From NCBI RefSeq assembly GCF_018132105.1, contig NZ_JWHL01000011.1, positions 1 to 64,000 of the forward strand: DNA of 64,000 nt. The letters run 5' to 3'. The translations under genes and the position numbers were made by a program. This DNA comes from Methanocalculus chunghsingensis (lineage in GTDB: Archaea; Halobacteriota; Methanomicrobia; Methanomicrobiales; Methanocorpusculaceae). The notes beneath the pieces were generated by a model. It saw nothing but the letters and a program-made list of their open reading frames with translations. It did not search any database and was not told the DNA's origin. Numbering within the stretch: the first letter of the stretch is position 1; each line of letters starts with the position of its first letter. Shown here in pieces: positions 49,446-61,507 of this stretch.

Positions 49446-50306
49446 TCACAGTTCTGTTCTGATCCTTTCCCAGGCTGTAGATAAGGCTTTTGATGCAGGA
49501 CTATCCATTTGAGTGACGGGAATGCCTTTTCTTACTGCCTGAACAACGGCTGGATCAAATGGAATCCTGCCAACGATTGGGATCCCTTCTTCTGCAGCAT
49601 AGACTTCTATCTCATTTGTGATCTCCTCAAGCAGATCAAACCGGTTGATCATGATGAGGATACGAGGATCAAATCTGCGACAGACGGTCACCACGCGTTT
49701 CAGGTCATGGAGTGCAGAGACACTTGGTTCTGTCACTATGAGTACCGCATGCATCCCGCTGATCGTGGAGATGAGTGGGCAGCCAGTTCCGGGTGGTCCG
49801 TCGACAAGGAGTATCTCTGCTGATGGATCTATCGTCAGCGCACGTTTCTTCACTTCATGGACAAGGAGACCTGATGTACCCGAACCGGGAAAGAGACGGG
49901 CATGCACAAGAGGTCCACACTCTGTTGTTGAGGTATAGATCTCTCCGCAGATTCGACGCTCCATCACAACAGCACCCTCAGGGCAGAGATGTGCACAGAG
50001 GCCGCATCCCTCACAATGGATGGGGGAGACGGAGAAAAGTCCCTCCTTGATACTGATTGCATCAAATGCACAATTGTTGCTGCATATACCGCACGAAACA
50101 CAGATTTCCGGATCTATTCGTGCGACATCAAGGCCATGAAACGGCTCTTTTGTGAGTTGTGTCGGTGATAGCATCAGCTCAAGGTTTGCCGCATCCACAT
50201 CACAGTCTGCAAGTACCTGTCGGCTGGTATTCGTATCTGCAAGGGCAGAGGTAACCATCGTCTTGCCGGTTCCCCCCTTACCGCTGATAACCGCGATCCG
50301 AATCAT
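49446..50306 (-). CDS. MinD/Mrp-superfamily ATPase with inserted ferredoxin domain (copy 1)
   Basis: 286 residues from ATG 50306 with GGAGGA 7 bases upstream. Deviant Walker A ISGKGGTGKTMV, then an inserted 2[4Fe-4S] ferredoxin (about 60-115: CVSCGICSNNCAFDAI and CEGCGLCAHLCPEGAV), then the Walker B-like LLVDGPPGTGCPLI and the C-terminal nucleotide domain. Relatives act as Fe-S carriers or electron-linked ATPases; the exact role is not established. Overlaps copy 2 by 4 bases. Confidence 0.9.
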   Translation of the reverse strand: MIRIAVISGKGGTGKTMVTSALADTNTSRQVLADCDVDAANLELMLSPTQLTKEPFHGLDVARIDPEICVSCGICSNNCAFDAISIKEGLFSVSPIHCEGCGLCAHLCPEGAVVMERRICGEIYTSTTECGPLVHARLFPGSGTSGLLVHEVKKRALTIDPSAEILLVDGPPGTGCPLISTISGMHAVLIVTEPSVSALHDLKRVVTVCRRFDPRILIMINRFDLLEEITNEIEVYAAEEGIPIVGRIPFDPAVVQAVRKGIPVTQMDSPASKALSTAWERIRTEL

Positions 50307-51154
50307 TGTTTCTCCTCCATGTATGATACAATCTTCTGGAAGAGTTCGGCAAAGTGCTGTTTCCACTCAGGGAGATCTCTTGCTATAAGATTGCCAGCAT
50401 TCTGGACAGCCGCAATCTGACGGTCAAATGGGATTGTCATCAGTATCGGGATGGAATGATCCGCACAGAAGCTGGTGATCTCTTCGTCTTCTCCATCACT
50501 TCGGTTGATCACAACACCGGCAGGAATGCCGAGTTCCTCAGCAACACTCACTGCCAGCGTAAGATCATGCAGTCCAAATGGCGTTGATTCGGTTACAAAG
50601 AGGCAGAAGTCGGCTCCATCAAGAGTCTCAATGACGGGACATGCAATTCCTGGTGAGGCATCATACAGGATGAGAGGATGGCCTTCTGCAAAACGTTTTG
50701 CCATTTTTATAACTGGCGGGGCCATAACCTCCCCTTCCTGCAGGACTCCGGTGATCAGGGTAAGCGTCGGAGCTGGTGCTCTGCATTGTATTATCCCTAT
50801 CTTTCGTCTCAGATCATGGATAGCACCAATCGGACAGACCAGTCTGCAGCCGCCGCATGAATGGCAGAGCTCCGGAAGGAAGAGATGGCGATCCTTCAGG
50901 ATGGTTAGTGCACCATACCGGCAGAATGCTCCACATTCTCCACAGAACGTGCATCGTGTGAGATCAATGTCGGGAACAGCAACGGTGACGGGAAGGTCGT
51001 GTGAGGGGGCCGGATAAAAGAGATGAAGATTTGGTTCCTCCACATCGCAATCCACCAGGACAACATCCCTCGTCTCCATGAGTGCATACGCGAGGTTTGC
51101 AACGACGGTACTCTTGCCTGTTCCACCTTTTCCGCTTGCAATCACTATCTTCAT
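50303..51154 (-). CDS. MinD/Mrp-superfamily ATPase with inserted ferredoxin domain (copy 2)
   Basis: 283 residues. Walker A ASGKGGTGKSTVVANLAYAL; ferredoxin insert with CTFCGECGAFCRYGALTI and CHSCGGCRLVCPIGAI; then ILYDASPGIACPVI. Paralogous to copy 1 but diverged, so the duplication is old; the pair probably works as a heterodimer. The start is 12 bases below the NifX-like gene's stop. Confidence 0.9.
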   Translation of the reverse strand: MKIVIASGKGGTGKSTVVANLAYALMETRDVVLVDCDVEEPNLHLFYPAPSHDLPVTVAVPDIDLTRCTFCGECGAFCRYGALTILKDRHLFLPELCHSCGGCRLVCPIGAIHDLRRKIGIIQCRAPAPTLTLITGVLQEGEVMAPPVIKMAKRFAEGHPLILYDASPGIACPVIETLDGADFCLFVTESTPFGLHDLTLAVSVAEELGIPAGVVINRSDGEDEEITSFCADHSIPILMTIPFDRQIAAVQNAGNLIARDLPEWKQHFAELFQKIVSYMEEKQ

Positions 51155-51166
51155 AAGACCCGGTTA

Positions 51167-51868
51167 TCAGGATAATGAAGGCAGGTTTCCTGCAAGGTAC
51201 GCCTTAACTGCATCGGTGACGGTACCGCCACCCCGGTAGGAGTATGCCTTCACACCGCTTGCCGCCAGTGCCTCTGCTGCATTCCCCCCCATCTGTCCGG
51301 TGATAAGATATTGCGCTCCTTTTTCCACAACCAGGGAAACTGCTCGTGGACCAACACCACCTGATGCATCAGCAAAAGGATTCGCTACCGATTCAACATC
51401 CGCTGTCTTCAGATCAAGGAAGATGAAGTATGGAGCACGTCCGAACCGCTCTTCAAAGGGTGCATCGATACCCGGTGCCTGCGCTGTGATGCAGAGGACC
51501 GTTCCCTCCTTCTCATCATGGCTGCATTCATCTTCAGGCCCGTGATGGCAGGTACTCTCACCCGTAGTGAGATCCCCACGGATATATGCCTCTGCTACGG
51601 CATCAACGTCCCCTGAGGCACCGAGTATGACCTCGATCCCATTCTGGCAGAAGAGATCTATGGCGCGGGGACCCATTCCTCCGGCAATAATCAGCTCTAC
51701 ATTCTGTTCAGCAAGGAAGCGTGGAAGTTTCCCTGGTTCATGGCCAGGGCTGTCAAGATCCTCACCCCTGCTGATCGTACCATCGTTGGCATTGAATATG
51801 GCATACTTTTCACAATGCCCAAAGTGGGCTGAAACCCGTGTACCATCCATTGCTATTGCGATCTTCAC
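51167..51868 (-). CDS. Two-domain NifX/NifB-type Fe-Mo cofactor-binding protein
   Basis: 233 residues made of two tandem dinitrogenase-iron-molybdenum-cofactor domains: MKIAIAMDGTRVSAHFGHCEKYAIF ... AGGMGPRAIDLFCQNGIEVILGA, and VLCITAQAPGIDAPFEERFGRAPYFIF ... GQMGGNAAEALAASGVKAYSYRG. A linker with CHHGPEDECSHDE could bind metal. No nif structural genes are near, so it likely handles an Fe-S or Mo/Fe cluster for another system. Overlaps the DUF5320 gene by 4 bases. Confidence 0.88.
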   Translation of the reverse strand: MKIAIAMDGTRVSAHFGHCEKYAIFNANDGTISRGEDLDSPGHEPGKLPRFLAEQNVELIIAGGMGPRAIDLFCQNGIEVILGASGDVDAVAEAYIRGDLTTGESTCHHGPEDECSHDEKEGTVLCITAQAPGIDAPFEERFGRAPYFIFLDLKTADVESVANPFADASGGVGPRAVSLVVEKGAQYLITGQMGGNAAEALAASGVKAYSYRGGGTVTDAVKAYLAGNLPSLS

Positions 51869-52095
51869 TCTTGCACCTCATTTTGGGTATTGATCTGAAC
51901 GAACCGACCCCGCATTCTTCCTCCGCCAAATCCTCTGCCACATCCGCATGGCAGGCCGCCTCTTCCAAGGCCATAGATGATCTGTTCACTCTGTGCTGCA
52001 CTCTGTGCATCTGAAGACGGGGAGACGCAGCGTCCCATTCTCCGTCCGGTCATGGGTCCCATTCCAAGGGGACCTCTTCCATTTAATCCTGGCAT
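51865..52095 (-). CDS. DUF5320 glycine/arginine-rich small protein (copy 1)
   Basis: 76 residues from ATG 52095: MPGLNGRGPLGMGPMTGRRMGRC is the DUF5320 hallmark. The C-terminus has CGCGRGFGGGRMRGRF. AGGTGAT lies 4-10 bases upstream. First gene of the operon running DUF5320-NifX-MinD-MinD-DUF134. TATTTATAC at 52137-52145 (minus strand) is the TATA box. Function unknown; family members accompany Fe-Mo-type proteins. Confidence 0.88.
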   Translation of the reverse strand: MPGLNGRGPLGMGPMTGRRMGRCVSPSSDAQSAAQSEQIIYGLGRGGLPCGCGRGFGGGRMRGRFVQINTQNEVQE

Positions 52096-52114
52096 TTGTA
52101 TCACCTGTTCTTCT

Positions 52115-52133
52115 GGTAATAAGTACTCATATG
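52115..52133 (-). repeat. Shared leader element, copy 1
   Basis: GGTAATAAGTACTCATATG occurs here and, identically, at 52480-52498, each about 20 bases before a DUF5320 start codon and including AGTACT. Confidence 0.6.
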
Positions 52134-52272
52134 TGTATAAATACTTAAATCTTGTTAATGTTCCAGAAGTATTTATATTCATCTTGCTATCCTTTGAAAC
52201 GTGTTCGAATGAAGAGGGGAAAGGAGGAGGCATGACAACTCGAACTGGTTGTCATTGCCTGGTATGGTCAGT

Positions 52273-52461
52273 TTACAGGAGGCGCCGTTGCACCCATCCT
52301 CTTCCTAATCCTCTACCACGTCCGCGAGGGATTCCGCCTCTTCCAAGGCCATAGACGATCTGTTCACTCTGTGCATTTGAAGATGGGGAGACGCAGCGCC
52401 CCATTCTCCGCCCGGTCATCGGTCCCATTCCAAGGGGGCCTCTTCCATCTAATCCTGGCAT
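52273..52461 (-). CDS. DUF5320 glycine/arginine-rich small protein (copy 2)
   Basis: 62 residues from ATG 52461 (AGAGGTGAT upstream; GTG 52470 is an alternative). MPGLDGRGPLGMGPMTGRRMG differs from copy 1 by one residue there, and the SEQIVYGLGRGG segment is shared. The C-terminus RGRGRGLGRGWVQRRLL lacks the cysteines of copy 1. A recent tandem duplicate with its own copied leader. Confidence 0.85.
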   Translation of the reverse strand: MPGLDGRGPLGMGPMTGRRMGRCVSPSSNAQSEQIVYGLGRGGIPRGRGRGLGRGWVQRRLL

Positions 52462-52479
52462 ATCAATCACCTCTGTTCA

Positions 52480-53941: not shown

Positions 53942-54964
53942 TTAGATGAGTTTATGCAGAGGATGGTTTGGATCCTGCACTTCTCCGCCCAGTTCACGGC
54001 ATGCCTCTGCGAGGACGATGTCGGTGAATGCGGCTGTGGTTGCCATCCCTTCGCAGTTCTCGATTGGACCAAACATAATCAGGTCGGCACCAAGCGCCAT
54101 TGCAAGGATGTTGCATCCGATGTCAGGGCTGGACCATGCTGCCTGTTTGATACCCTCGAATCCGCCAAAGTGGTGGTGTCCCATCTGTTCAAGGAGGACA
54201 TCATTTCCTTTGTAATGTTCTGCGAGAACGCTCTTCCTCCAGCGTTTCAGCCAGGTCCATGAGACGGTCATGTTGTGGTATGCACCACCGGTTGGGAGAC
54301 CATGGATCGCCTTGCAGGCAAGGATCTCACGGAATGATCCGCCGGATCCAAGACCGAGCGGGGTTGCTGCAGTATCAAGGATCGGGCGGGTGATACCTGC
54401 CTCTTCTGCGATCTGGAGCATGCCCTTTGCCTGTCCTGCAACGCCACCCTCAACAAGAACCTTCTCACGGCCGACGACTGATGGGTCGCCTGGGTTGAAG
54501 GCGAGGACGATCGCGGAGTTGACATCGGATGCAGCAAGTACGTCGATGTTCTCCTGTGGAATCGATCCATTGATCGAGTTGTAGATGGCACGGTCAGCAA
54601 GGCCGACTTCGGTCACATATTCACATGCATGTGCAAGTGCTGCCGGTGCTGACGAGTCCATCAGGAACGGGGTCTTGTTGTCGATACTGTCGAACCAGCT
54701 GAAATAGCTTTCGAATGCCTCGCCAAATTCGGCGATGATCTGGATGAAGTACGGGTTTCCTGTGATATCGTACAGCTCCATACACCGGTTCCAGAGCGCT
54801 TCTGCCTTTGGCTTGTCGATCTTACCAGTGTGATCATCGAGCACGGTCTCGTGCTTATTATAAAAGATGGATGCACCGAGTACCCTTGGGTATTCACCGG
54901 GCTGTCCACCAATTTTAATTCCGTTGAAGTCGAGAACGGTCTGTTCTTTCTCAAACCTGAACAT
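53942..54964 (-). CDS. mtrH: Methyl-H4MPT:CoM methyltransferase subunit H
   Basis: Soluble subunit that transfers the methyl group from methyl-H4MPT to the corrinoid of MtrA. 340 residues, somewhat longer than the ~310 usual. FRFEKEQTVLDFNGIKIGGQPGEYPRVLGASIFY at the N-terminus; TIM-barrel motifs TPFLMDSSAPAALAHACEYV, AIVLAFNPGDPSV and ILDTAATPLGLGSGGSF; GADLIMFGPIENCEG near the end. GAGGTG lies 10-15 bases upstream. Last gene of mtrEDCBAF(AG)H. Confidence 0.95.
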   Translation of the reverse strand: MFRFEKEQTVLDFNGIKIGGQPGEYPRVLGASIFYNKHETVLDDHTGKIDKPKAEALWNRCMELYDITGNPYFIQIIAEFGEAFESYFSWFDSIDNKTPFLMDSSAPAALAHACEYVTEVGLADRAIYNSINGSIPQENIDVLAASDVNSAIVLAFNPGDPSVVGREKVLVEGGVAGQAKGMLQIAEEAGITRPILDTAATPLGLGSGGSFREILACKAIHGLPTGGAYHNMTVSWTWLKRWRKSVLAEHYKGNDVLLEQMGHHHFGGFEGIKQAAWSSPDIGCNILAMALGADLIMFGPIENCEGMATTAAFTDIVLAEACRELGGEVQDPNHPLHKLI

Positions 54965-54981
54965 AGTTGGAACACCTCACG

Positions 54982-55719
54982 TTAGAGCATACTAATTTTC
55001 GGAAGGATCATCAGCAACATGATAAATACAATAACCCCTGCTACGAGGCCATAGAGGATGCCGATGTCACGTCCGATCTTCCTGCCCACCCTCTGGGCAA
55101 TCTCAGCGTCTGCAAATTCTATCTTCTTCTCGATCTTGTCGAGTCGTTCCTCGAGTTCGAGGAACTGCGGGTTGGCGCCGGCAATTGTTGTTTCATGGCC
55201 TCCGCCGCCTGCTTCTTTGACCTCGATGACCATTGGATCGGCTGCGAATGCGCCGGGATCCCGTCCGGTGAGCTCGCTGATCTTGGCTTTGATCTGACCG
55301 AGGTCTTCGGTCTCCATGATATTTGCAAGCTCGACCTGCTCCTGGAACCTCTTGATCGCGGCATCATCGAGATTCTCGATAAAAGGAATTGCTCCCTCTG
55401 CTCCGACGATCTTTCCTCCGGAGACACCGCTCTTGTGGAGTGCTTCAAGTGACTGGCCGCTTAAGTGCCCTTTCACTTCGGTTCCACAGAGGAGGACGAA
55501 CCTGATATTCGGGTTTGAGATGATGTTTGCGATGATCTTCTCAAGCCCGAGGTTCTCGGTCTTGCAGGATCCGCATAATGCAGCCCCGCTTGCGCAGATG
55601 CCAGCCTCGTCGAGGTGAGATCCCATTGTAACAACAGCGACACAGCTGTTTGCATCGCCTGAATGGAAGTCTCCCTGAGCGATTGGCCATCCGCTTGCCG
55701 GTGATTTCTTCTCTGCCAT
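54982..55719 (-). CDS. MtrA-MtrG fusion subunit
   Basis: 245 residues from ATG 55719 (GAGGTGA 4-10 bases upstream; GTG 55728 possible). Residues about 1-170 duplicate the MtrA corrinoid domain almost exactly, including [12 protein letters not shown] with the cobamide-ligating His (about 85). After KEAGGGG the sequence switches to a typical Mtr[55 protein letters not shown], one coiled-coil helix plus one membrane helix. It occupies the normal mtrG position between mtrF and mtrH, and no separate mtrG exists. The complex would thus anchor an extra corrinoid domain through MtrG. Confidence 0.9.
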
Positions 55720-55729
55720 CTTCTTCACC

Positions 55730-55915
55730 TCAGAGAACCAGAACCGGTACCATCACAACGACCAGGGCGAGCATAAGCCCGATGATGAAGCCGGGAATGC
55801 CCGCAGACATAATCCCGGATTCAAGCTTGTTCGTCCGGGCGATGATCTGCGCTTTGTATCGGATGTTCTCAACCATTTTGTCAATTGCGTTCATTCGGAT
55901 GCTTGAACCTGCCAT
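55730..55915 (-). CDS. mtrF: Methyltransferase subunit F
   Basis: 61 residues: a cytoplasmic helix ([30 protein letters not shown]) and one membrane helix ([20 protein letters not shown]). Usual MtrF features and position, downstream of mtrA. The helix is similar to the membrane-proximal helix of the adjacent MtrA. Confidence 0.9.
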
Positions 55916-55920
55916 CTATC

Positions 55921-56646
55921 TCACCCCATCAGAAGGAATCCAAGAATGGTAAATATAACGATCAGACCGATCATCAGTCCTTCAACCTTCCCCGAGTAGA
56001 CGCCTGCGGCGAACCGGTTCTGCATACCGATGTTGGTTACCATTCTCTCGATGATCTTCATGCGGGCGTGGATGAGTGCAAGTTCTCCAGAGAGGGGCTT
56101 AACCTCGCCTGTGGCTTCCTCTGCTCCGCCTCCGCCTGCCTCTTTGACCTCGATGACCATTGGGTCGCCGGCGAATGCGCCGGGATCCCGTCCGGTGAGC
56201 TCGTTGATCTTGGCTTTGATCTGACCGAGGTCTTCGGTCTCCATGATGTTTGCAAGCTCGACCTGCTCCTGGAACCTCTTGATCGCGGCATCATCGAGGT
56301 TCTCGATGAAAGGAATTGCTCCCTCTGCTCCGACGATCTTTCCTCCGGAGACACCGCTCTTGTGGAGTGCTTCAAGTGACTGGCCGCTTAAGTGCCCTTT
56401 CACTTCGGTTCCACAGAGGAGGACGAACCTGATATTCGGGTTTGAGATGATGTTTGCGATGATCTTCTCAAGCCCGAGGTTCTCGGTCTTGCAGGATCCG
56501 CAGAGTGCAGCTCCGCTTGCGCAGATGCCGGCCTCATCAAGGTGCGATCCCATTGTAACAACAGCGACACAGCTGTTTGCGTCGCCTGAATGGAAGTCTC
56601 CCTGAGCAATCGGCCATCCGCTTGCCGGTGATTTCTTATCTGCCAT
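55921..56646 (-). CDS. mtrA: Methyltransferase corrinoid subunit A
   Basis: 241 residues. A cytoplasmic cobamide-binding domain (about 1-170) with [45 protein letters not shown] and [10 protein letters not shown] (His about 85 ligates cobalt). A GGGG linker follows, then a C-terminal helix-plus-membrane anchor, [20 protein letters not shown] ... [19 protein letters not shown]. The methyl carrier between MtrH and the MtrCDE membrane part that moves sodium ions. Its first ~540 bases are nearly identical to those of the MtrA-MtrG fusion. Confidence 0.95.
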
Positions 56647-56652
56647 CTTTCT

Positions 56653-56940
56653 TCACCCCATATACTGGAACGCCATGAATGCTGCAATGAGCAGACCTAC
56701 AGCCAGTCCATACCAGAAGGCTGTGACACCTCCGGCATACATCAGTGACTTCTCTCTTCCAGGGAAACTGTTGAGCAGCTGACCCTCTCCAGAGAGCATG
56801 CCGACAAGATCCTCTGCTACATTCTCAAGTTCAGCAACCTTATCGATGATCGGCTGGTAGGACTCTCCGGCGGTGGTCACAAATCCAATGACCGGGTCGG
56901 CGACGAGGCCGAATTCGGGTAATACAAGAACATATCCCAT
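56653..56940 (-). CDS. mtrB: Methyltransferase subunit B
   Basis: 95 residues from ATG 56940 (GGAGAGGTGAT upstream; MGYVLVLPEFGLVADPVIG is the family start). One C-terminal membrane helix (GVTAFWYGLAVGLLIAAFMAFQ). Between mtrC and mtrA as usual. Confidence 0.93.
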   Translation of the reverse strand: MGYVLVLPEFGLVADPVIGFVTTAGESYQPIIDKVAELENVAEDLVGMLSGEGQLLNSFPGREKSLMYAGGVTAFWYGLAVGLLIAAFMAFQYMG

Positions 56941-56956
56941 ATTTATCACCTCTCCC

Positions 56957-57802
56957 TCAGGCCTCAGTCTCCAGAATCGGCTTGGCGTCAAGCCATGCTG
57001 CTGCATCGCGCTTTGAGAGCTCGATGAACTGTGTGTAGGTGTAGCCCCATCCGATGATCGCTATCAGCAGGCCGACGAGTGCCGCTCCTACAGCAATGAA
57101 TGCAAAGGAGATGACTGCCATAATGATCATGGAGAGGAATCCACACTCTGCGGCGAGCATGAGTGTCCGATCCTGTGTGTTCGACGGGCCAAGCGCTGCA
57201 TTGAACGGGTGCTGGATTGCGATTGCACCAAGCATGAATGCGACAGCGATAATACCTCCTCCGAGGTAGGATGCGTTTGCCGAGCTCATTGCAAATCCGA
57301 AGATTGAGATCGTTCCGGCAGAGAGTGCACTGAAGGTAAAGTCACCGGTCGCCATCGCGGTAAAGCCGAGGATGGTGAGTGCACCGATGATTGAGAGCTC
57401 TGCAAGAGACTGCATCAGAACCGGGATCTTCATATTCAATACATTATCTGCAAGGAACCCAAAGGCCGCTCCGGCGACTGCTGCAATGATAAGAGCAGCG
57501 ATCGGGGATGCAATGCCGAATTTGGTTCCAAGGAGCATGGCGATGATACCTGCACCAAATGCGACCATACCAGCGGATGGAACACCTGTTCCGATACCAT
57601 AGCTGCAGAGTCTTTTGATGGTGCTTGTTCCCCAGATAAGAGCGATAACCGCCCCAAGCCCTCCGAAGAATGAGAATAACTCAAGTCCGGTGATGGTGTT
57701 GAGATATGTCAGATAGATACAGATAATTGATCCGACAATTCCAACTGCCAGGAGGGTGTTGTGAGGGATTGCGTCATGAGATGCTTCTACTTTTACTGTC
57801 AT
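56957..57802 (-). CDS. mtrC: Methyltransferase subunit C
   Basis: 281 residues, about eight membrane segments, part of the sodium-translocating MtrCDE module. ATG 57802 is preferred over GTG 57811, as GAGGTGGAG then serves as ribosome binding site. YGIGTGVPSAGMVAFGAGIIAMLLG and NTQDRTLMLAAECGFLSMI are typical. Confidence 0.94.
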   Translation of the reverse strand: MTVKVEASHDAIPHNTLLAVGIVGSIICIYLTYLNTITGLELFSFFGGLGAVIALIWGTSTIKRLCSYGIGTGVPSAGMVAFGAGIIAMLLGTKFGIASPIAALIIAAVAGAAFGFLADNVLNMKIPVLMQSLAELSIIGALTILGFTAMATGDFTFSALSAGTISIFGFAMSSANASYLGGGIIAVAFMLGAIAIQHPFNAALGPSNTQDRTLMLAAECGFLSMIIMAVISFAFIAVGAALVGLLIAIIGWGYTYTQFIELSKRDAAAWLDAKPILETEA

Positions 57803-57812
57803 CTTCTCCACC

Positions 57813-58670
57813 TCAGAATGGCACCGGTACGATGATCAACAGGGCGAGCAGACCGGAGAGAGCTGATGCGACAGCACTTGCAACAATTGCACGTGGGAAC
57901 CGCTTGAACTTGGGGTCGTGGGGACCTTCGATGGTTCCGGTGATATTGTATGCGGTCAGCACTGCGTTTACAAGGAACATACCGATTGCAAAGATACCTG
58001 CAATGGATACGATCAGCGGCATGACACTCTCAACATCTGTTCCCATGAGTGCTGGAATACCGGTCAGGTAGGCGTCATAGAGTGAGAGGTAGATGAGTGT
58101 TCCGCCGAAACCTCCGATAAGACCTCCGAGGACACCTCCAACGTATGAGATGAACGGAAGACCGTGCCCCTCAGTACCCTGGCTTTTATATTCCGGTTGT
58201 GTGTCGCCGGTCAGTGGGTCTTTGTTGACCTTTCCTGATGCTGCGGGAATTCCCATTGCAAAGACGTACGTGACGTTCACAAGCATACAGGTGATGGCCA
58301 TCAGAAGTGCGCCGCCGATTGCACCGGTTCCAAGAGCAACCGGGTAGCTGAACTGTGCCGCCCATGCTCCTTTAAAGAGGCCGGCAAGACCTGCACCTGC
58401 TGCAAGCATTGTGACACCGGTTGCAATACCTGGTGCCTGACCCATTGCCGCCGGCGCTCCGCCGACAGGAACGAGGTGCACACTGAAGGTGACAAGCATT
58501 CCGCCGATGATAATTCCGATGAGGGAATAGAAGGCGGCCATCGGGAAGATACCTGCAATTGTCAGGCCAAATCCGATACCAAGAACTGCGAGCAGCAATA
58601 CGACTGCGATTGCAGCTCCCATGACGGGCATCTCTGCTCCGCCTGCTGGCTTACTTGCGATCGCTGACAT
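57813..58670 (-). CDS. mtrD: Methyltransferase subunit D
   Basis: 285 residues, about six membrane segments. HLVPVGGAPAAMGQAPGIATG and GHGLPFISYVGGVLGGLIGGFGGTL match MtrD. Starts 1 base after the mtrE stop (TAAATG). Confidence 0.95.
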   Translation of the reverse strand: MSAIASKPAGGAEMPVMGAAIAVVLLLAVLGIGFGLTIAGIFPMAAFYSLIGIIIGGMLVTFSVHLVPVGGAPAAMGQAPGIATGVTMLAAGAGLAGLFKGAWAAQFSYPVALGTGAIGGALLMAITCMLVNVTYVFAMGIPAASGKVNKDPLTGDTQPEYKSQGTEGHGLPFISYVGGVLGGLIGGFGGTLIYLSLYDAYLTGIPALMGTDVESVMPLIVSIAGIFAIGMFLVNAVLTAYNITGTIEGPHDPKFKRFPRAIVASAVASALSGLLALLIIVPVPF

Positions 58671-59570
58671 TTATATTGCCTCCTCTTCGGGTGCAGTGTA
58701 CGGACCGTACGTCTTGCGAGCCCAGACCTCGATGTAGCGGGCCATGATCGTGATGATAAGGACAATAATTGCTCCCATCATGATTGATCCCCAGCCTCCG
58801 AAGAACTGCTCGAATGTGAGGTGTCTCCAGAGTTCGAAGAAGACGATCAGCCCAAAACAGATACCTGATGCGGGTCCGCCAAACTTTGAGGTGAACCATC
58901 CGTTGTCGAGTGAGCTTCTTTCACCGGCTTCTGCATACCGGATGATGTTTCCGGATGCCGAGATCGGGACGCCTGCTCCGAATTTCTGGTTCTGGTACTG
59001 GCGTTCTTTCCCATAGAATGGGTTTCCGACAGCAGAACCGGCTGCTCCGAGTGCGATACCCCAGATGATACCGAGGATTGGCAGCGGGAACGGATGACCG
59101 AGGACTGCGTTCATAAGGTAGCATATCGTCACGGTCGTAAAGATTGCGACGAATGCGTGTGCGACAGTGACCGGTGTCACTGATTTCAGTATATCAACAT
59201 AGACTGGCTGGCCAAATTTGGCAAGACTTGCTGTCCTGCCGAGATAGGCGGTGGTTGCATAGACACCCTGAACGAAGGATGCGAGAACACTTCCAATAAT
59301 AATAGCAAGAACCGGATTGACGTTCATTGCCATAAATGCCCATGCGACACCTGCACCAAGTGCAATCCAGAGAGCCCATGCCGGGGGCTCACCTGCGATG
59401 GCCTTGTTAAAGATACGGTGATTGTATCCCATCTGCGGAGCCAGCTGAACCTGAGAGTTGGGATCACCCTGTGATCCGATATCAGACTCGGTATCTTCAG
59501 CTGCACCTGCAACCGTTGCAAGTGCTCCCGCGAGGGCAGCCACTCCAATACCTAATACGATGTTCTCCAT
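58671..59570 (-). CDS. mtrE: Methyltransferase subunit E
   Basis: 299 residues, about six membrane segments, first gene of the mtr operon. ALAGALATVAGAAEDTESDIGSQGDPNSQVQLAPQMGYNHRIFNKAIAGEPP is the conserved cytoplasmic N-terminal loop with its acidic residues, important for sodium transfer; GIALGAAGSAVGNPFYG is also typical. Confidence 0.95.
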   Translation of the reverse strand: MENIVLGIGVAALAGALATVAGAAEDTESDIGSQGDPNSQVQLAPQMGYNHRIFNKAIAGEPPAWALWIALGAGVAWAFMAMNVNPVLAIIIGSVLASFVQGVYATTAYLGRTASLAKFGQPVYVDILKSVTPVTVAHAFVAIFTTVTICYLMNAVLGHPFPLPILGIIWGIALGAAGSAVGNPFYGKERQYQNQKFGAGVPISASGNIIRYAEAGERSSLDNGWFTSKFGGPASGICFGLIVFFELWRHLTFEQFFGGWGSIMMGAIIVLIITIMARYIEVWARKTYGPYTAPEEEAI

Positions 59571-59800: not shown

Positions 59801-61507
59801 TCACTTTGCGGGGATGATGAGCGAGCGCTCGCCGGCTGGCATGAACTCGCGGATTGCACCGCGTGCAAACTCCTTCCTTGGTTCGGAGAAGTCGAACTTG
59901 AGGGCAGGGTCTGCGAAGCAGATCTTGATGAGTGGGGAGAGCGACCATGCGTCACCACGTCCGTAGTGGGAACTACCGACGATAGCTGCGTATTCTCCCT
60001 GGTGACCGACGTTCATTGCATAGTTTGGATAGTTTGGTCCACGGAATTCGCCGATACAGCCCTCGTCAGGCCGGACGGAGAGTGAGTTTGCTGAACCACA
60101 CTGGTCCTGCAGGTCGTAGCCGAAGAATCCGAGACGTGACCATCCCTCTTTGTGCATGAGCATGGAGAGGTACCATCCGTTCAGACCGGCGTTGGAGTGA
60201 CCTGTTGCGATAGAGGTGGAGAGACCACAGGCTGCTGCAAGGACACCGGCACGCTGGGAACCACCGAAGTGGTCTTCCATCATGGTCGGGTACTGTTCGT
60301 ACTGCTCCATACCGTTGAGGTTGACCTCGGTTGCGATGTCGTTGACGACTTCCTGGGTTGGCTTGACCTTGTCTGCGGGGTTCGGGTTCTGCCAGTCGAC
60401 CTTGTACTTGTCTTTGATGTAGTCCATACCGTAGTAGGTGAACTCATCAAGGATGTTGTCGGTGTATGCAGCGGTTGCATACTGGGTGAATCCGACACCA
60501 CCGGACATGTAGGAGCCGAGCCAGATCTGGTCAAAGAGCATCGTTCCTGCACCGACAACCTCAAGAGCTGCCTTTGCGGGGTCATTTGGATACTTCCGGT
60601 CTGCCTGGATCATGTCAGCGAAGTTGCCGAAGAGGATACCACCTGGCTCGTTTGGACCACGGGCACGGCGGGCTGGCAGGTGGGAAGACATCTGGATGAC
60701 ACCAGCGTGCTTTGCGGCGTAGGAGAGGTCAGCGACTGCTGCTTCACCTGCGCACATCCGGTATGCACCGATGAAGGACATACCGATCTGCATGGCGGAC
60801 CACCGGGAGGTCGTTCCACCGTCGCAGGTGCGGGAGACGGATGTCGGAATGTGAACACACTGCCACATGGACTTGCCGACTGCGTTCATCAGTGATTCGG
60901 CCTGCTTCTTGGGGAAGAGCTTCTCGACGTTGATAAGGAACTGTGGCTCGATATCGTCTGCAAGCTCGGAGTCTCCGGTGAAGACCTTGACGTAACAGTC
61001 GTCGGTGAGCGCAGGGTGGGTCTCGACCATGTGCTCCTGAACGACGGCTGCGCCGGGCATTGCGTGGTTGACGACGTGGAGGTATTCGTTGATCGTCTCA
61101 GGAGTAACTTCCTTGCCGAGACGCTTCTGGAGTGTCTGGTGGGCAAGGTCCATGTTGACGATAACGGTTCTCCGGATGTCGTCCCAGAACTGCTGCATTG
61201 CGGCATTGTTGACGAAGTGGAGGTCGTCACCCTCGACGAAGGTGCCGGTTCCTGAGACCTCGTAGGTCATCAGCTGGCGCTGACCCATTGGGACACCACC
61301 AAGGTGGCACCGCTCTGGATCATACATGTCAATGCCACGCTCTTTGACGATCTTCTCGTTTGCCGCCTTGAATTCCTTCTTCCTTGGCGACTGGTTCACA
61401 CCGTCAAATGCATAGAACTTGGCTTTCTGTGATTCTACATCCTGTCCCGGGAACTTCTCCTTCAGTGCCTTCAGGAAGAGTTTCTGTGCTCTCTCAATCT
61501 TTGCCAT
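59801..61507 (-). CDS. mcrA: Methyl-coenzyme M reductase alpha subunit
   Basis: Catalytic subunit releasing methane from methyl-CoM and CoB. 568 residues. Key residues by motif: Ni-ligating Gln in VVQEHM (about 157), His267 in YAAKHAGV, Arg281 in LPARRARG, the active-site FTQYATA (Tyr 343), Gln418 in HFGGSQRAG, the thioglycine site in [11 protein letters not shown] (Gly463), and Cys470. These correspond to the modified His257, Arg271, Gln400, Gly445 and Cys452 of the Methanothermobacter enzyme by offset. Last gene of the mcr operon; codon use is strongly biased as for an abundant protein. Confidence 0.98.

Follow-up and report, generated by a model that had tools for sequence, protein, structure and literature searches.

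Mtr, the methyl-tetrahydromethanopterin:coenzyme M methyltransferase, carries out the Na+-pumping step of hydrogenotrophic methanogenesis. The closest described counterpart of the gene reported here comes from Wang et al. (2015), who found in Methanomicrobiales an additional mtrA that is joined to mtrG and sits between mtrF and mtrH, and named it mtrA-2b (PMC4632066). It was present in all eight Methanomicrobiales examined, and all eight orthologues lay in the same context. In the same work the MtrA domains of both copies were described as homogenised by gene conversion, mtrA-1 and the second copy being nearly identical, and a different fusion, mtrA-2a (mtrA-mtrF), was assigned to Methanococcales and Methanocella arvoryzae (PMC4632066). 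A 2018 study listed mtrA among the few genes with long-lasting concerted evolution (PMC6053082). In the Mtr complexes of M. marburgensis and M. mazei, resolved by cryo-EM as (ABCDEFG)3, MtrG lies next to the MtrA anchor helix in the stalk, with the N-termini of both cytoplasmic; the MtrA corrinoid domain sits on a disordered linker and is proposed to move back and forth between MtrH and MtrCDE (PMC10998594, PMC12774963). A complex contains three MtrG (PMC10998594, PMC12774963) and, in M. mazei, three MtrH dimers (PMC12774963). A search of the available literature for Methanomicrobiales Mtr found no biochemistry, no structure and no proteomics of the fusion.

The window, that is, the whole stretch of 64,000 nucleotides that was analysed, carries a complete mtr operon on the minus strand, with the gene order mtrE-D-C-B-A-F-[A-G]-H by Pfam matches. 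The operon runs from mtrE (58671..59570, PF04206) through mtrD (57813..58670, PF04207), mtrC (56957..57799, PF04211) and mtrB (56653..56973, PF05440) to mtrA-1 (55921..56646, PF04208), a normal MtrA of 241 aa with its own C-terminal stalk helix. Downstream of this canonical copy, and between mtrF (55730..55915, PF09472) and mtrH (53942..54964, PF02007), lies mtrA-2b (54982..55719), an open reading frame uninterrupted from ATG through stop that encodes 245 aa. Residues 4-172 of its product matched PF04208 (MtrA, E=9e-83, profile positions 1-170 of 173), and residues 185-237 matched PF04210 (MtrG, E=9e-23, profile positions 11-63 of 64). In the genome search these matches correspond to 55204..55710 on the minus strand for the MtrA corrinoid domain and 55009..55167 on the same strand for the MtrG coiled coil and membrane helix. 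The two parts stand in a single frame, joined by a glycine-rich linker. An earlier note, made from the letters of the window, had read the gene as an MtrA domain, a linker and an intact MtrG beside a normal MtrA, and the domain matches and operon order bear this out.

The same note had named the fusion as the only source of MtrG, with a separate mtrG elsewhere in the genome as one of the findings that would refute it. The whole genome (99.5% complete) gave exactly two MtrA matches, both in this operon, and a single PF04210 match, which is the fusion; no free-standing or second mtrG was found in it, so the claim holds. The gene replaces the free-standing mtrG of the operon, with the MtrG helix and the cobamide domain both intact. 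The carrier belongs to Methanomicrobiales; Methanocalculus sp. UBA9912 and Methanocalculus taiwanensis are among its nearest named relatives (92% over the MtrG part).

Other features of the window were noted by eye. An open reading frame that reads as McrA (59801-61507, minus strand) immediately precedes mtrE on that strand at a distance of about 230 bp, which makes mcr a neighbour of mtr and co-expression of the two a possibility. The region 49446-51154 (minus strand), together with 51167-52470, encodes two adjoining paralogous ATPases of the MinD/Mrp type with inserted ferredoxin-like cysteine motifs, and beside them a NifX/NifB-like protein and a pair of short Gly/Met-rich proteins with the motif GRGPLGMGPMTGRRMGRC in common.

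The corrinoid domain of the fusion contains the GHLSGQ axial-His motif, which is conserved in both copies. In the alignment to M. marburgensis MtrA (8q3v), His85 of this domain falls on HisA84, the axial cobalt ligand of that protein (PMC10998594), and together with the conserved cobamide-site residues it gives the fusion the sequence features of a cobamide-carrying MtrA. An AlphaFold model built from 31 fusions (mean pLDDT 77.6) showed an MtrA fold followed by helices at residues 184-199 and 203-244, the latter two corresponding to the MtrG part. When the model was searched with Foldseek, the significant matches were solved MtrA chains only (5l8x, 9qtr, 9qts, 5laa), and the isolated corrinoid domain aligned with MtrA structures at target-normalised TM scores of 0.91-0.94. 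Between the two parts, the linker (residues 170-188) was modelled with low confidence as disordered (pLDDT <50). When the tails were compared, its length was about that of MtrA's own linker.

A disordered, glycine-rich segment of this kind could be accessible to a protease, and the fusion might then be processed post-translationally to yield free MtrG and a soluble MtrA domain. We consider such cleavage very improbable: the linker of MtrA-1 is equally disordered and is reported to be uncleaved in M. marburgensis (PMC10998594), and the linker pattern of the fusion, E-V-A-x-A-G-x-N-P-Q-F, is conserved across the order.

MtrG was detected in 179 of 232 genomes of Methanomicrobiales. With an order-specific profile it was found, always once, in 100 of the 106 genomes that were at least 95% complete, covering all 27 genera sampled; the six near-complete genomes lacking it are drafts of 110-400 contigs. 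On unbroken contigs of the order MtrG lay in frames of roughly 200-320 residues, and no free-standing MtrG was seen among the Methanomicrobiales loci read. Elsewhere in the phylum MtrG was free-standing in all matches listed, in frames of 73-143 residues. Among the matches listed outside the order, the alignment to the MtrG profile started at position 1-4, versus 5-11 within the order, and this later start places the fusion point at the extreme N-terminus of MtrG. The fusion was in frame in all 46 loci with two intact copies. For 80 named Methanomicrobiales records, the whole fusion frame was recovered in 40, the frame ran off a contig edge in 36, and the remaining four were explained by frameshifts, by a gap in the locus or by a missed motif; L065 and L068 are loci with frameshifts.

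Short frames around MtrG in the first survey were considered as free MtrG and rejected, since those fetched proved to be at contig ends, except for one that has scaffold Ns. Genome G166 (L037) was likewise dismissed as an exception, scaffold Ns having removed the middle of both its MtrA copies. Four loci from metagenome-assembled genomes (MAGs), L077, L100 and L120 (B-A-G-H) and, with a gap, L111, read mtrB-[A-G]-H without the mtrA-1 helix or mtrF; they probably represent assembly collapse across near-identical mtrA copies. Because 36 of the 80 records break inside the mtrA repeat, mtrA counts from MAGs are unreliable.

A repeat that breaks so many drafts, and that appears collapsed in several MAGs, also lends itself to the suspicion that an assembly error merged the two mtrA copies in this genome, which the earlier note had raised. 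The survey has already refuted it. The same structure occurs in many genomes, among them single-contig genomes from several genera and families (G084, G087, G055, G139, G157, G192, G196), and 18 sites distinguish the window's two copies. The fusion is a real, order-wide and ordinary feature of Methanomicrobiales, already published and not new. The earlier note had treated it as possibly a rare oddity, a view that gives way to its presence in every readable Methanomicrobiales locus and to the reports of 2015 (PMC4632066) and 2018 (PMC6053082).

Conservation and phylogeny were assessed in the 46 loci with two full copies, giving 92 MtrA domains. Seventy-two residues were identical in 92 of 92 domains, including the axial His85 and the surrounding GTEVKGHL stretch. 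Over 168 codons the window's own pair shows a DNA identity of 96.4% and a protein identity of 98.2%, and 15 of its 18 differences (504 bases) fall at third positions. Similarity spans from about the start codon to the glycine linker and includes one identical run of 194 bp, which covers 108 of 311 polymorphic sites (p=0.007 versus shuffled polymorphic sites). DNA identity of paralogues within a species averaged 97.7% (minimum 86.3%), and identity between species was 77.2%. On the maximum-likelihood tree 41 of the 46 copy pairs were sisters, the window pair with a support of 96. The five pairs that were not strict sisters were L006, L017, L088, L092 and L097, and four of these still grouped among close relatives. 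The nearest neighbour of the second copy of L097 was another Methanoculleus, consistent with a lapse of conversion at that locus. Taken from the sequences, the most simple explanation is that recurrent gene conversion has kept the MtrA domain of the fusion nearly identical to mtrA-1. That every species duplicated the gene recently and on its own is less likely, because all 46 loci share one structure and one slot.

Conversion could, however, hold an idle domain identical without selection on function. The extra MtrA domain might then be a passenger tethered to the essential MtrG, with no role in methyl transfer, or a spare or structural part only; conversion alone could maintain its sequence, and the solved Mtr complexes function with one arm per protomer (PMC10998594, PMC12774963). 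We regard this as unlikely, given that both copies retain every cobamide-site residue at 46 of 46 loci, drifted pairs included. In L113, where the copies have drifted to 86% DNA identity, protein identity is still 92% and all invariant residues are present. Both mtrA copies were cited as essential by Wang et al. (PMC4632066), and this could stem from loss of the fused stalk subunit alone.

Our preferred reading, to which we assign a probability of roughly 0.7, is that mtrA-2b is an Mtr fusion subunit standard in Methanomicrobiales, from which we infer a second swinging cobamide arm. The MtrG helix would keep its usual place in the central stalk, and the extra corrinoid domain would hang by a flexible linker from the cytoplasmic end of MtrG. 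Since the domain sits on the MtrG N-terminus and its linker is similar in length to that of MtrA, the second arm would have a similar reach. An (ABCDEFG)3 complex would then bear six corrinoid arms, not three, as many as it has MtrH barrels, and one arm of a protomer could take up a methyl group at MtrH while its partner gives one up at MtrCDE. The proposal of two corrinoid-bearing subunits per complex, which the earlier note had made, fits the conserved cobamide site. For M. mazei, steric constraints were taken to mean that MtrA is unlikely to serve the membrane-distal barrel of MtrH (PMC12774963), and the match between six arms and six barrels may therefore be a coincidence. We propose only tentatively, and at somewhat less than even odds, that the two non-equivalent arms of each protomer (on MtrA and MtrG) either serve the two barrels that oppose each other in an MtrH dimer or take turns at MtrH and MtrCDE, and so change turnover or Na+ coupling compared with three-armed complexes. 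In corrinoid stoichiometry, the solved structures from M. marburgensis and M. mazei may not be representative of this entire order of major methanogens. The evolutionary side of the fusion is already in the literature.

MtrA domains fused to MtrF were found elsewhere in the phylum. Two family groups, f10 (15 of 15 genomes) and f12 (2 of 2), carry their operonic MtrA domain on an MtrF helix, as in L135 (4641-5577, minus strand) and also in L137 and L138. We take f10 to be, probably, ANME-1, judging from the cysteine-rich McrA motif in L143. The fused tail scored 44-55 bits with the MtrF profile and 8-14 with that of the MtrA helix, and the next small gene (65-67 aa), read in three f10 genomes, scored 42-46 bits with the MtrA stalk-helix profile and 9-15 bits with MtrF. 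The same operon has been described as '[AF]F' with a duplicated mtrF (PMC9982363); the profiles instead point to a swap of tails, in which the corrinoid domain is carried on the MtrF helix and the MtrA helix is left separate. In a group resembling Methanocellaceae (f14), three of four genomes, from two genera, have a canonical MtrA and an MtrA-MtrF fusion (G254, locus L136; G239; G260), and in the fourth (G247, L139) MtrF is free-standing. Among such genomes this had been noted for Methanocella arvoryzae only (PMC4632066).

Compared with the structurally characterised complexes of M. marburgensis (8Q3V) and M. mazei (9QTQ), each half of the fusion matches its subunit by sequence, whereas in those complexes MtrA and MtrG are separate chains, giving three corrinoid domains per complex. 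The EDCB[AF]FGH operons of TACK, Methanoliparia and ANME-1 (PMC9982363) resemble the present locus in carrying an MtrA domain on a different stalk helix. They differ in that the ANME-1-like genomes read have one operonic corrinoid domain, on the MtrF helix, and no MtrG fusion. The mtrA-2a gene (PMC4632066) likewise puts an extra MtrA domain, one homogenised with mtrA-1, on a different subunit of the stalk, but it is fused to MtrF and placed between mtrA-1 and mtrG, with MtrG separate, as seen in L136. Doubling of the MtrA domain has arisen more than once and on different stalk helices, A-G here and A-F elsewhere. With mtrA-2b (PMC4632066) the window's gene shares the order, the slot between mtrF and mtrH, the order of domains, the accompanying mtrA-1, the fusion to mtrG and the concerted evolution; it differs in nothing of substance, being the same gene in another, Methanocalculus-like species.
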